Assembly: GCF_034479615.1 (NCBI RefSeq)
Contig: NZ_CP140255.1
Span: forward strand, 2,914,001 to 2,978,000
Direction: 5' to 3'
Length of the DNA stretch: 64,000 bases
From: Vreelandella neptunia
GTDB lineage: Bacteria > Pseudomonadota > Gammaproteobacteria > Pseudomonadales > Halomonadaceae
Shown here: positions 1 through 10,104 of the stretch, one piece after another
Layout of the letters: every line of letters begins with the position of its first letter
Numbering within the stretch: the first letter of the stretch is position 1
Notes under the pieces: generated by a model
What the model was told of the DNA's origin: nothing
What the model saw: the letters and a program-made list of their open reading frames with translations, nothing else
Database searches by the model: none
Made by a program: the position numbers and the translations under genes

Positions 1-963
1 GCAGATACCTAGTTTACCTCCATGTTGTCGAATTATGTATCCTAAATATTCTATATTATAACTCACCCCCTTGTTGTAATTAATTATTTTCGTTTTATTT
101 TTATTTAATGAAAGACCAATATCTAACATTAGCTCAGCAATTTCTCTCTCCCTATCGTCAGCAGTAAACAAATCAGAAGGAGTAAAAACAGCAATAATAT
201 CATCTACATATCTTGTATAATATACAACTCCAGGCATGGATTTAATTTTTTCATCAAACTCACTCATATATAACTCTGACAAATAAGCACTTATACCAAT
301 TCCTCTTGGAATTCCTTTACTACTGCCAGTGATAGATCTATACTGATTTAATATCTGTGAAATAATTTTCCTAGAAGCTAATGAAAGCTTAGGATTGCTA
401 TTTATTTTGCTTTTTAAAATATCACTATCAATGCTTTCATAGAACCCAGAAATATCGGTTTTAATTATTTGCTTTGGAAAAGCATCATCAAGAACAGACT
501 TCAACTGTGATATAACAATATCTCTATTAGCCTGCTTTACATTATATGTAGATTTAATATTTTGCTGTATTTTCTTTTCTGCAAAAAAAGATTCTAATTT
601 GCTGTTGATCCTATAAGTTTCTTTATGATGATGGGGCGAGTTATTTCTTTCAATGCTTATTTTGAAAGTTCTCTTGGCAATTGCCTGGGATATCTTTTCC
701 AAATGTGAATCAATTACCTCATCACGTTTAGAATCGTTCTCCTTGATTGACTCTTTCAACTTATGGAAACGGTCATTAAAAACTTCCTCTGAATACTTTT
801 CCTTTCTTTTATTCAAATTACTCCTAACACGACGAAGTCGTTTTATAATCAAAGAATACTCTTTCACTTCAGCCGGAAAACCTTTTTCAATATAGTCCCC
901 TTTTCGATTCTCTTTATCGTAGATAACTCGTAAATTTTTAGATGTGAAAGATTGGCTAAGCAT
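1..963 (-). CDS. reverse transcriptase, probable antiphage Drt3a-like (UG3) RT, 3' end outside window
   Basis: Reading the minus strand from the ATG at 963-961 gives 321 residues with no stop before the window edge. RT landmarks appear in order: catalytic Asp170 in TDISGFY, GIPRGIGIS (217-225), the YVDD box (252-255, bases 199-210), GLSLNKNKT (283-291) and a LGYII motif (307-311). A purine-rich AGGGGG lies just before the ATG. The N-terminal extension of about 120 residues is rich in Lys/Glu, probably helical, and opens with QSFT...ENRKG, which from memory matches Drt3a, one of two RTs in the DRT3 antiphage system. GC is about 30% or lower in the lines I counted, far below the core genes, so it was probably acquired by transfer. 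A group II intron maturase is less likely because its usual N-terminal RT0/RT1 motifs are not seen. RT identity is near certain; the Drt3a assignment is moderate. Confidence 0.9.
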   Translation of the reverse strand, partial: MLSQSFTSKNLRVIYDKENRKGDYIEKGFPAEVKEYSLIIKRLRRVRSNLNKRKEKYSEEVFNDRFHKLKESIKENDSKRDEVIDSHLEKISQAIAKRTFKISIERNNSPHHHKETYRINSKLESFFAEKKIQQNIKSTYNVKQANRDIVISQLKSVLDDAFPKQIIKTDISGFYESIDSDILKSKINSNPKLSLASRKIISQILNQYRSITGSSKGIPRGIGISAYLSELYMSEFDEKIKSMPGVVYYTRYVDDIIAVFTPSDLFTADDREREIAELMLDIGLSLNKNKTKIINYNKGVSYNIEYLGYIIRQHGGKLGIC

Positions 964-980
964 TTAACCCCCTGCAAGAA

Positions 981-996
981 ATAATATAAATATTAT
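981..996. repeat. AT-only inverted repeat overlapping the RT promoter
   Basis: The 16 bases form a perfect inverted repeat, ATAATAT-AA-ATATTAT, between the RT start codon and its likely -10 box. It could be an operator. In DNA this AT-rich it could also be chance. Confidence 0.4.
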
Positions 997-1000
997 AACA
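992..1000 (-). promoter_or_regulatory. probable extended -10 promoter of the RT gene
   Basis: The minus strand reads TGTTATAAT here, a perfect extended -10 element. It is placed to start a transcript about 20 bases before the RT start codon. No good -35 is visible, which is acceptable for extended -10 promoters. It overlaps the inverted repeat at 981-996, so a repressor bound there could block it. Confidence 0.5.
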
Positions 1001-1119
1001 CTTTAACAACAATGGACTTTACTACTCAATTACAGAAAGCAAACATAAATAAAAAGCTTTTAACTTTAAGATCGAGAATTCGACAAAACAGGTTCGTGAA
1101 TAATTTAATTGCATCATTT

Positions 1120-5584: not shown

Positions 5585-5830
5585 ATGCAACAACGTAAAC
5601 AAGTCGTCATTATCGGCGGTGGTTCGGTCGGAGGTTCGGCCTTTCATCAGCTTATTCAACACGCTGCAAAAATGGGAGTTTCCGATTATCTTGAAATAAC
5701 TCTTATCGAACGCTCAAGTAAGGTGGGCTCTGGAGAGGCTTATCAAAATGATCACTCACACGCTCTCTTAAACACTCATGCAGACACAATGTCTCCAATT
5801 GCAGGGCAATCTGAATCGCCCCGAGTATTC
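5585..5830 (+). pseudogene. FAD/NAD(P)-binding protein, 5' fragment cut by IS
   Basis: The first 82 residues hold a Rossmann nucleotide-binding motif (VVIIGGGSVGG) followed by TLIERSSKVGSGEAY and LLNTHADTMSPIAG, the typical opening of the FAD-NAD(P)-binding family PF13454. AAGGA precedes ATG 5585. The frame then runs into the end of an IS3-family element and stops at 5833. The rest of the gene resumes at 7027. Before insertion the gene lay 52 bases behind the CoA-transferase and probably belonged to the same operon. Confidence 0.85.
5812..5823. repeat. left arm of inverted repeat flanking the IS
   Basis: TGAATCGCCCCG here is the exact reverse complement of 7034-7045 on the other side of the IS. 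With one mismatch the match extends to 15 bases toward the element. Without the IS the two arms would form a hairpin-like palindrome inside the flavoprotein gene. Confidence 0.8.
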
Positions 5831-6724
5831 TAGACACCCGTTAGGCTCTTAAAGTAACGCCTTTCATACTCAACCGGTGATAAGTTATCACTTGTCCCGT
5901 GTCGGCGCTTTGGGTTATAGAACATTTCAATGTAATTGAACACGTCACGTCTAGCCGCTTCGCGTGTCGAATAAATCTGTCGCTTGATTCGCTCTCGCTT
6001 GAGGAGTTGAAAGAAGCTTTCAGCAACGGCGTTGTCATGACAGTTACCACGTCGACTCATGCTGCCCACCAACTGATTAGCTTTCAGAAAGCTTTGCCAG
6101 TCTCCACTGCTGAACTGGCTTCCTTGATCCGAATGCACCATCACCGATCCTTGCGGCTTGCGTCGCCAGACTGCCGATAACAAAGCATCCAGCACTAATT
6201 CCGAGGTCATACGAGACTTCATCGACCAGCCAACCACTTGACGAGAAAACAGGTCGATAACCACCGCTAAGTAAAGCCAGCCTTCGTATGTTCGGATGTA
6301 CGTGATATCCGTCACCCAAGCAACATTTGGCGCTGTTACTTCAAACTGACGGTCTAAATGGTTAGGTGATACAACAGCCGGTTTTCCACCGCCATAGCAG
6401 CCAGGGCGTCGTCGGTAGCCCGTCTGGGAGCGTAAACCTTCCCTACGCATCAGGCGGGCCACTCGGTGCTTACCGCAGGCTTCGCCAGCCTCACGCAAAT
6501 CCTGGTAGACCTTGCGATAACCATATACACCGCCGCTTTCAAGCCACGCATGCTTGACCAATCCCAAGAGACGCTGATCATCCCGGTCTCGATTAGACAG
6601 TACTTTTTTGCACCATGCGTAGTAGCCGCTAGGATGCACGGCCATCATGCGGCACAAACGCCGTATCGGATATTGGCTCGCATGGTTTTGAATAAACGCG
6701 TACCTCAGTCGGACTCCCTGGCGA
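5830..6724 (-). CDS. IS3-family transposase OrfB (DDE integrase)
   Basis: OrfB has the HTH_21 segment (YGYRKVYQDLREAG) and an rve integrase core with DDE residues in WVTDITY, HSDQGSQF and CHDNAVAESFF. An in-frame ATG gives 275 residues from 6657, but the frame is open upstream through RYAFIQNHASQYPIRRLC and overlaps the end of orfA in the -1 frame. The working product is therefore probably the OrfAB fusion. Its TAG stop lies within the terminal inverted repeat. No frameshift or missing catalytic residue is seen, so the transposase is probably functional. Confidence 0.92.
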
Positions 6725-7026
6725 AGTACGCGGTGGCCTTTTTTAATATATCTCGCTCTTCTGACACGCGCTTTAGTTCAGCCTTCAAACGACGGTTTTC
6801 AGCGTGGAGATCATCATCTTCTTGTCGTTGTTCTACCGGCTTATCGTAGCGCTTGATCCAGTGGTACAAGCTGTGGCCTGACACGCCTAACCGCTCAGCG
6901 ACTTCGGCAACGCGATGGCCGCGCTCTACCACCTGTTTAACGGCTTCGATTTTGAATTCTTCAGTGTAACGGGGACGGTTCATGGATCCTCCTAGATGCC
7001 TTTAGTATAAGGCCTAGAGGTGTCTA
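5831..7026 (-). mobile_element. IS3-family insertion sequence (about 1.2 kb)
   Basis: The element is bounded by inverted ends that both read TAGACACC inward, followed by weaker similarity (TTAGGC/TAGGCC). It encodes orfA and orfB on the minus strand, joined by an A_AAA_AAG slippery heptamer at 6738-6744. It interrupts a flavoprotein gene. No direct target duplication is visible; instead the host flanks carry an inverted repeat (5812-5823 and 7034-7045). The transposase looks intact, so the element may be active. Confidence 0.9.
6705..6983 (-). CDS. IS3-family transposase OrfA
   Basis: The 92-residue protein has a HTH_Tnp_1 helix-turn-helix (YTEEFKIEAVKQVV, VAEVAERLGVSGHSLYHWIKRY), then a leucine-zipper-like helix with ENRRLKAELKRV. 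OrfA binds the terminal repeats and controls transposition. Codons for DILKKA contain the A_AAA_AAG heptamer (plus-strand bases 6738-6744). A -1 shift there continues into the orfB frame to make the OrfAB transposase, as is known for this family. The frame ends at TGA 6705-6707. Confidence 0.92.
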   Translation of the reverse strand: MNRPRYTEEFKIEAVKQVVERGHRVAEVAERLGVSGHSLYHWIKRYDKPVEQRQEDDDLHAENRRLKAELKRVSEERDILKKATAYFARESD

Positions 7027-8381
7027 CGAAACCCGGGGCGATTCAATCTTCCCATTTTATCAACTGGCTATACCAGAACGAAGAACTATGGCGGCAACAA
7101 TACCCCCACCTCTACGTTCATCCCAGTGCCTACTTACCTCGCCCTCTTTTTGGGCTTTACATGCAAAATCTTTTTGAAGACAGTCGCACACTTGCTTGGC
7201 AATATCGCATACCTTTTACTCGACTCCACTGTGAGGCATCAGACATTGTACCAACCGAAGAAGGCTACTTAGTAATCACCGACAACGATAAGCGAATCAA
7301 GGCTGATTATTTGCTTCTTTGCTGCGGGAACCTCCCCTCAACAAAATTCAAGGCACACCATCAACGATCTTCATACTTCAATAGCCCTTATCCAGGCTAC
7401 GTTATCGCGGAGCAAATTGATAAGGATCAACCAGTCTGCATCGCTGGTACCAATCTAAGCGCAATCGACACTATTATTTCGTTAACGGAGCATGGGCATA
7501 GAGGTAAAATCATTTGCGTTTCGCGGCGTGGTCGTTTCCCAAGCGTCAGAGGGACACAGAACCCAAAGCATAAGCCCCGCTATTTAACCGAATCAGCAAT
7601 CATGGCACTCGCAAAAACTCACGACGGCATAACTCTAGAGGATGTATGGCATCTCCTCAACCAAGAATTACTTGCAGTAGGAGGTCGGGGAATTGATATC
7701 CAGGAAATTCTTTCTGAAGGAACTACTGCCTATGACTACCTTTGTCAGGAAATTTCTAAGGCTACGCAAGTACCAAGACTCTGGCAGTCCATAGCTTACT
7801 CACTCAATAGTGTCATTGATCTGATCTGGCACAATCTACGCAAGGAAGATAAAAGAAAGTTCTATTGTGAATACCGTGACCTCTTCCTAGCCTACCGGGT
7901 CTCCTTCCCACTCGAAAACGCCCGACGCTTGCAAAAACTAATGGAAACTGGACAGCTAAATATTCATTGCGGCATTCAGCGCGTTGGCTATGATGAAGCA
8001 GAAAACTGCTACAACATAGAACTTATCGACAATGCTTGGAATCATGAGATGAGGGTTCGCTCTCGTTACTTTATTAACGCCACTGGATACAATCTCTCTG
8101 TGGGTGAAAGCGAGGTAGCTTTAATTCAGAATCTTCTTAAACGCAAGCTTGCGACTGCAGACCCTTTTGGCGGATTCCGTACTGACTTTAAAACAGGAGC
8201 ACTCCTCTCCTCATCTGGATTACCACAGAGACATCTCTTCGCCTTGGGCAGCCTAACGACTGGAACCTATTTCTTCACTAACGCAATGGATGTCAATGCC
8301 CGCCATACAAGTGAGCGTGCAGGTCATATCGTGGAACAAATTGCCATTGCAGCTCTATCTCAGACTCGGGATGCCGTATAG
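7027..8381 (+). pseudogene. FAD/NAD(P)-binding protein, 3' fragment after IS
   Basis: About 450 residues continue the flavoprotein begun at 5585: HFINWLYQ, RPLFGLYMQ, ADYLLLCCGNLPS (NAD(P)-side strand), VCIAGTNLSAIDTI (second dinucleotide-binding motif) and FINATGYNLSVG near the end. A GTG at 7020 inside the IS end could start a shorter protein, but it would lack the N-terminal FAD-binding fold. The joined product would be about 530 residues. It probably belonged with the CoA-transferase and cupin in oxidation of an organic acid or amine, but the substrate is not readable. It is functional only if the IS is lost precisely. Confidence 0.8.
7034..7045. repeat. right arm of inverted repeat flanking the IS
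   Basis: CGGGGCGATTCA is the reverse complement of 5812-5823. It lies eight bases outside the right IS end, matching the left arm, which lies seven bases outside the left end. Confidence 0.8.
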
Positions 8382-9531: not shown

Positions 9532-10104
9532 ACGGCACCGCTAGACATCTTCGAGATGATCACCCCGGAACCGCCCGACTTTCTGCAGATTTATCAGCCC
9601 CACCTATGCTATTACCTGGTCGATGAAGGGCGCTATACTGATGAACAGCTAGGTTTGGTTCAGACACCGCTCAGTGGCGTTTTCAGCGTCGAAAATGCAG
9701 GAGAGAGCTGGGAAACCCTGCAGCGAGCCGTTGATCGTATAGTGGCCATCATTCAAACGGATCCGAACAAAGAGCGCATTGATAAGGTCATTACACGTTG
9801 GATCAAGCGTCACCTGCAACGGCTTGGAGCAGAGGTGAACCTAGATCAGCTCAACAGTTTGGTGGAGGATAAAGATATGTTGGCAGAAAATTTAGAAAAC
9901 CTGGTGCAAAAAGAGCGTCGGGCAGGGGAGCAACTGGGTATTGAAAAAGGCCGTCAAGAAGCCGAGAAGCTTGCTTTGGAAAGCAAACGCAACACGGCCC
10001 GTAAGCTGATCGCTCGCACCGAAATGGATGATCAGATGATCGCGGATATCGAAGAGCTGCCCGTCGAAGAGGTAAAAAAGTTACGGGCAGAGACTCAACA
10101 TTAG
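9532..10104 (+). pseudogene. Rpn-family (YhgA-like) nuclease, 5'-truncated copy
   Basis: From ACGGCACCGCTAGAC at 9532 onward the DNA is a near copy of 13212-13772, the last two thirds of the intact Rpn gene at 12804. The first 136 residues, holding the nuclease core, are missing. An ATG at 9556 leaves a possible 182-residue C-terminal protein. The tail differs between copies (KGRQEAEKLALESK here, GRQEAEQRALEGK there). It is a partial duplication in the same orientation, so the two copies form direct repeats around mmuMP. Confidence 0.85.

Follow-up and report, generated by a model that had tools for sequence, protein, structure and literature searches.

A predicted DRT3 anti-phage operon beside recBCD in Vreelandella neptunia, within a variable recD-DUF427 defence hotspot

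In the DRT3 system of E. coli, whose protein-templated DNA chemistry was described in 2026 (Wang et al. 2026, PMC13174585), the reverse transcriptase (RT) Drt3a was reported to read the ACACAC of a non-coding RNA (ncRNA) into poly(dTdG), while Drt3b was reported to prime on its C-terminal tyrosine and to alternate dC and dA by means of side-chain gates, the two strands then pairing. RecBCD was inferred in that study to degrade the DRT3 product; lambda Gam, a RecBCD inhibitor, triggered growth arrest in the presence of DRT3, and loss of any one RecBCD component made it impossible to propagate a plasmid carrying DRT3 (PMC13174585). RecBCD reportedly also shields the cell's own DNA from Gabija, while both OLD and retron Ec48 are reported to react when RecBCD is lost or antagonised (PMC12407980). 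Concerning the places where defence genes gather, the cDHS1 and cDHS2 hotspots of Pseudomonas aeruginosa have fixed core-gene borders and variable defence cargo, with a GC content below that of the chromosome in cDHS1, and the terms recB, recC, recD and recBCD do not occur in the main text of that report (PMC10250203). In Stenotrophomonas maltophilia, the RecBCD operon lies within defence island #27, where RecBCD is itself counted as defence alongside an incomplete Wadjet I system, and that report does not use the term DRT (PMC11680222).

The locus described here belongs to the V. neptunia genome G000, a single contig of 4.95 Mb, from which a stretch of 64,000 nucleotides (G000:C1:2914001-2978000, hereafter the window) was analysed; DRT3 parts lying left of window position 1 were read from the same genome and carry negative window coordinates (Table 1). 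We are highly confident, judging from its sequence, that it is a complete DRT3 anti-phage system, a cassette within the defence hotspot between recD and DUF427, for which the published mechanism is to be expected. Like E. coli DRT3 (PMC13174585), it has the order drt3a-drt3b with the ncRNA in cis downstream, an ACACAC in a loop and the named priming, gating and catalytic residues of DRT3b; it differs in being chromosomal and beside recBCD. By the membership of Drt3a, Drt3b and ncRNA, the operon is an ordinary-looking addition to a known system, one more well-conserved DRT3. Its address is more interesting than the operon itself, RecBCD being both the reported brake of DRT3 and the reported shield against Gabija.

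A predicted DRT3 operon: two reverse transcriptases and an ncRNA

Table 1. Features of the DRT3 locus and its borders in the V. neptunia genome.
Feature	Window position	Contig position	Strand	Support or remark
drt3a (UG3, Class 2 RT)	-374..963	C1:2913626-2914963	minus	NCBIfam, PADLOC, PDB
drt3b (UG8), 691 aa	-2451..-376	C1:2911549-2913624	minus	NCBIfam, PADLOC, PDB
ncRNA	about -2576..-2452	about C1:2911424-2911548	minus	25-sequence alignment, covariation
ACACAC of ncRNA	-2501..-2496			
recD	-5028..-2659	C1:2908972-2911341	plus	PDB match to E. coli RecBCD subunit
recB, recC	further left than recD			PDB matches to E. coli RecBCD subunits
Gap 5' of drt3a, presumed promoter region	964..1119			
Weak -35/-10-like pair	1009-981		minus	promoter scan
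DUF427 gene, 102 aa	1120..1428		minus	Pfam PF04248, 2.9e-30; right border of hotspot

The first-pass annotation of the window had proposed that an AT-rich frame at its left edge encodes Drt3a, and each element of that proposal was borne out. The frame is open on the minus strand over positions 1-963, from an ATG at 963 to its exit at the left edge; GC is 30.8% in positions 1-1000, against 42-67% in the other kilobases; the RT landmarks that had been listed are all present (Asp170, GIPRG at residues 217-221, YVDD at 252-255 and LGY at 307-309), as are the N-terminal motifs QSFT (residues 4-7) and ENRKG (residues 18-22). The 321 codons inside the window, out of 445 for the entire gene, yield a fragment that scores 272.6 bits against the NCBIfam cut-off of 200 and has Drt3a as its best PADLOC match, at E = 3.5e-78. 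Full-length Drt3a reaches 375.2 bits on the equivalog model NF041747 (cut-off 200, model positions 1-412 of 412), 6.3e-113 in PADLOC and 1.2e-23 against PDB entry 9z6y_A; its likeness to the solved Drt3a is moderate, with a best stretch of 207 of the 445 residues, and the active site made up of D170 and the YVDD is intact. It is extremely improbable that we are dealing with a solitary or degenerate RT, of the group II maturase or retron kind, misread as Drt3a: the TIGR04416 and St85 retron models do match the product weakly, but both stayed far below their cut-offs in the HMM comparison that the earlier annotation had suggested (for the group II intron maturase, 72 bits with the fragment and 75.4 bits in a later search, against a cut-off of 300; for the St85-type retron RT, 48.3 bits with the 321-residue fragment, against 235), and drt3b and the ncRNA are both present and intact.

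The second RT (Drt3b/UG8) anticipated left of position 1 was indeed found directly downstream of drt3a, after a 1-base gap, and is followed by the structured ncRNA. Drt3b scores 696.6 bits on the equivalog model NF041748 (cut-off 350, model positions 1-647 of 647), 6.3e-196 in PADLOC and 4.4e-76 against PDB entry 26cz_A. The key residues published for E. coli DRT3b are E22, R71, D182, F187, R241, the YVDD and Y666 (PMC13174585). Using the 26cz alignment and an alignment of eight Drt3b sequences (A1), with a numbering offset of 108 that is our own reading, we mapped them to E23, R108, D218, F223, R285, YVDD 319-322 and Y691, the latter being assigned as the last invariant residue of A1. The catalytic (D218, YVDD), gating (E23, R285) and priming (Y691) residues and R108 are thus all kept in the V. 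neptunia protein, and the published residues are invariant in the eight aligned sequences, apart from a Vibrio copy (L024) that has D in place of E23 and I in place of V320; E22D was described as a natural, partly active variant (PMC13174585). The copy from an E. coli plasmid (L021), where the record shows two annotated ORFs in this region, is not part of alignment A1. The best plasmid match to Drt3b, at 42.7% identity, is on an E. coli plasmid, and nine phage records have matches, one of them a distant one over 91% of the query and the others partial.

The ACACAC-type ncRNA that the first-pass annotation had also predicted lies 3' of drt3b. A CA run, defined as three or more CA or AC units, was found in the 320 nt that follow the Drt3b stop in 87 of 88 distinct loci, at +37 to +48 in 71 of them, and ACACAC is present in 85 of the 88; about 10% of shuffled downstream regions have such a run anywhere. 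These 88 loci were obtained from 94 with a Drt3b match, of which 91 exceeded 200 bits and three were then removed as second copies; the three under the filter were L007 and L008, which have no run, and the Enterobacter locus L025, whose only run is at +221. The single locus among the 88 that lacks a CA run is L092, whose Drt3b match ends at query residue 503.

To describe the structure, we used an alignment (A3) of 25 of the 86 distinct downstream regions, hand-picked as the alignable type. The ACACAC is invariant in all 25 and is located just 3' of a GGCTG-TAGG-CAGCC hairpin, within a closing stem, and a third hairpin comes next. The three stems comprise 17 pairs, at which 97.6% of cells are paired, and pairing falls to 28-51% when the stem partner is shifted by 1-3 columns. 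Double-changed cells number 72, compared with 19.9 in shuffles, none of 500 shuffles reaching 72. Of five covariation measures, two give a weak signal, namely the number of pairs showing a double change (11 against 8.5 in shuffles, a value reached by 20 of 500) and that of further pair types (24 against 24.9), and the structure was derived from the very alignment on which these measures were computed. Since A3 leaves out the short-N-terminus type of G080 and of the second copy in genome G050 (L019, L020), as well as L021-L025, the covariation counts apply to the G000 type. One hairpin pair is A-C in the G000 copy, and a search of Rfam returned no family at gathering score. Short CTACCTG repeats were observed soon past the ncRNA of the other G050 system, copy 1 (L018, G050:C1:1056000-1075900).

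Considering that every DRT3 part is conserved, the published mechanism is expected for the Vreelandella copy, and we infer from E. coli DRT3 how it may proceed. Drt3a would copy the ACACAC loop into poly(dTdG), and Drt3b, primed on its own C-terminal tyrosine, would make the complementary poly(dCdA), with Glu23 and Arg285 serving instead of a template. The two strands would anneal into double-stranded repeat DNA that RecBCD would normally destroy; if a phage blocked RecBCD, this DNA would accumulate and cell growth would stop.

The recD-DUF427 interval as a defence hotspot

DRT3 is placed between recBCD and the DUF427 gene. It is convergent with recD, at 0.2 kb from the recD 3' end (207 bases separate drt3b from the recD stop), and 156 bases separate the DUF427 gene from the upstream end of drt3a. 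RecD (E = 1.5e-104), RecC (1.5e-185) and RecB (1.3e-169 over its first 981 residues) were identified by PDB matches to their E. coli counterparts in RecBCD. A promoter scan of L002:3300-7200 returned 16 promoter-like sites against 16.0 expected, no excess, so that the weak pair in the gap 5' of drt3a is not significant, and a terminator scan found 3 against 1.8 expected.

Several minor features surround the locus. A YhgA-like Transposase_31 gene is located between recC and recB in the same genome (L003:12486-13421, minus strand). Right of the DUF427 border, positions 1578-2268 hold two short ORFs that look like remnants, one of 149 aa for an EamA transporter and one of 101 aa with a LysR HTH match below threshold. 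Further on, an IS3-type element within positions 5585-8381 includes an ORF with rve and HTH_21 domains (5830-6657) and probably also the minus-strand ORF 6705-6983; it is flanked by FAD-NAD(P)-binding matches at 5585-5833 and 7020-8381 that look like one split gene. NAD_binding_9, the Pfam family of this gene, is also represented in the L128 hotspot, by a cargo protein of 633 aa.

We placed recD in 80 of 82 genus genomes and read the downstream flanks of 40 genomes plus G000 and G080, one of which (L124) was too short, leaving 41, including G050. The genes that follow recD are almost all singletons (first 22 flanks). A DUF427 homologue or fragment is found downstream of recD in 27 of the 41 flanks, 2.0-9.6 kb away, with two separate DUF427 matches in five; nine flanks contain a second recD 3' piece further downstream, and these extra pieces look like insertion scars. 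Interval GC is 0.32-0.47 in 36 flanks and 0.50-0.65 in the other five, all of which have no DUF427 in range.

The content of these intervals was compared with PADLOC at 1e-8. The other 39 flanks hold 181 cargo ORFs, of which 50 were scanned; these came from 29 flanks and were for the most part among the larger ORFs. Matches better than 1e-30 were obtained for 23 ORFs, weak ones for 6 and none for 21; counted by genome, 16 of the 29 had a strong match, 5 a weak one and 8 none. By comparison, the 33 window ORFs of at least 240 aa beyond position 10000, a control that represents one region of one genome and unmatched sites, gave at most three matches, none of them better than 1e-30. Named cargo includes PD-T7-5, Lamassu, a TIR/PDC-S60 protein, Gabija (three), HerA-DUF4297, HerA-SIR2, Thoeris ThsA, retrons XI and IV, a CBASS-type phospholipase effector, a dGTPase, Drt8, OLD and PDC-S53, and RVT_1 matches within 20 kb downstream of recD amount to 10 rows in 7 genomes. 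Constant borders, variable cargo and enrichment in defence genes, as in a core defence hotspot, were all found together, and between recD and DUF427 the genus thus has a defence hotspot of changing content and, in most genomes, low GC.

This arrangement is like that of cDHS1 and cDHS2 in its fixed core-gene borders and variable defence cargo, and like cDHS1 in its low GC, but recBCD itself is a border here and recD 3' pieces are left behind. The presence of RecBCD genes among defence genes recalls island #27 of S. maltophilia. In the literature searched, with most subscription journals outside its scope, we found no report, for relatives of Halomonas, of a defence hotspot next to recBCD or between recD and DUF427, nor any of DRT3 beside recBCD, the latter being absent also from PMC13174585; PMC13192584 held nothing relevant.

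From the remnants kept in the flanks, we infer that the operon arrived here as a cassette, and homologous recombination within the core genes on either side is the probable route. A recD piece is kept between DRT3 and the intact recD in L026, L027 and L029, and a DUF427 fragment stands beside drt3a in L026 and L029, with none in L027. The second DRT3 copy of G050 is 15 kb from the intact recD, yet remnants of the recD 3' end and of DUF427 still flank it, one on each side. It shares 76% identity along 3.5 kb with the cassette that lies directly between recD and DUF427 in G080; later cargo seems to have been inserted ahead of the G050 cassette. Moving away from the intact recD at this site (L147, G050:C1:2526253-2546000), newer cargo and DUF427 come first, and behind them an older recD 3' remnant, then DRT3 and finally the DUF427 remnant, a stacking that could record insertion order.

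DRT3, Gabija and the recBCD address

Drt3b was detected at 1e-60 in 13 of 275 family genomes, corresponding to 14 systems. Six of them (G000, G080, G050 copy 2, G108, G113 and G193) are oriented towards recD from a downstream distance of 0.2-16 kb, one (G050 copy 1) is on the recD contig but 1.5 Mb away, and seven are on contigs where no recD was found, three of these lying less than 3 kb from the contig start. Drt3b of G080 and of G050 copy 2 has 32% identity to that of G000 and belongs to another DRT3 lineage, so that at least two DRT3 lineages reached the recD site.

A wider survey of Drt3b neighbourhoods kept 80 loci of 399 relatives, with flanks of up to 10 kb, some shorter, and in these relatives too a CA run follows drt3b. 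Five are, by their record titles, from Halomonadaceae: L026, L027 and L029 have recBCD matches beside DRT3 (they are the G113, G108 and G193 systems, with identical match values, and were counted once), L034 has no recBCD alongside, and the contig of L092 is short (6.5 kb). Among the 75 kept loci that we take, partly from their record titles, to lie outside the family, none had a RecB, RecC or RecD match in the fetched flank, which leaves a general attraction of DRT3 to recBCD unsupported; many of these lineages may lack RecBCD.

Within the 82 genus genomes, we counted the systems located within 20 kb downstream of recD, places being matched to recD by hand and near ones recomputed, and systems on other contigs being scored as unlinked, some of them near contig ends (G134, G198 and G241 for DRT3). 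DRT3 is at the recD site in 3 of 4 cases and near-full-length GajA in 5 of 7 (5 of 14 rows in all), compared with 2 of 12 HerA genes (15 rows), 1 of 5 full-length ThsA (3 of 12 rows), none of 71 HsdR rows and none of 63 AbiEii rows. With the length filter, DRT3 plus GajA (8/11) differs from HerA plus ThsA (3/17; Fisher p=0.006), whereas over all rows the same comparison gives 8/18 against 5/24 (p=0.18), and the bias was looked for only once Gabija had been seen at the site. Moreover, the single GajA profile used missed the GajA of G077, which is in the hotspot (L154), so that other subtypes elsewhere may be missed as well. Whether function or a convenient site underlies it, the concentration of DRT3 and Gabija beside recBCD, noticed after the fact, is suggestive but no proof: like DRT3, Gabija reportedly relies on RecBCD for self-tolerance (PMC12407980).

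Most probably, the site is a neutral integration hotspot at which the adjacency of DRT3 and recBCD is a coincidence, the recD 3' end and DUF427 merely providing homology for exchange. The near-constant change in the genes adjoining recD argues for this, as do the PADLOC matches in 21 of the 29 genomes scanned, spread over many unrelated systems, the low GC of most intervals, the leftover recD 3' and DUF427 pieces and the resemblance to the core hotspots of P. aeruginosa (PMC10250203); what speaks against it is the strong unevenness between systems, 0 of 134 HsdR and AbiEii rows against the 8 of 11 for DRT3 and near-full-length GajA. This same unevenness is what speaks for a functional neighbourhood, in which systems toxic without RecBCD (DRT3, Gabija, OLD and RecBCD-sensing retrons) would be kept alongside it: a cassette recombined at recD would land by a working recBCD, and gain and loss would stay coupled. 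OLD, retrons IV and XI and Drt8 are at the recD site too, and the reported lethality of DRT3 without RecBCD (PMC13174585), the shielding of self from Gabija and the RecBCD sensing of OLD and retron Ec48 (PMC12407980) are consistent with it. We nevertheless hold it to be unlikely. The comparison was picked once the cargo was known and loses its significance without the length filter; three of the five hotspot GajA frames contain one in-frame stop (G045, G066 and G018); Thoeris, HerA, CBASS and Lamassu genes share the site; its retrons are of types IV and XI rather than Ec48; no kept DRT3 locus outside the family had recBCD in its flank, with the reservation on lineages made above; and type I restriction operons may exceed the size that fits the site.

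A stronger proposal, which we regard as rather improbable, is that the recBCD end in this genus is a dedicated dock for systems whose self-tolerance depends on RecBCD, such as DRT3 and Gabija, toxic or self-targeting upon RecBCD failure, with cassettes exchanged via the recD 3' end. Such exchange would link safeguard and weapon, so that a phage RecBCD inhibitor would trip the docked cassette. Were the bias to hold in a full survey, RecBCD-monitoring systems could be predicted from gene neighbourhood among defence systems not yet described, and the unnamed hotspot cargo would become a short list for testing.

Large cargo proteins without a PADLOC match at 1e-8 are encoded at L119:5795-8656 (953 aa, no Pfam match), L119:8557-10413 and L138:2937-4949 (TIR_2 and SLOG domains), and these are candidates for undescribed defence genes.
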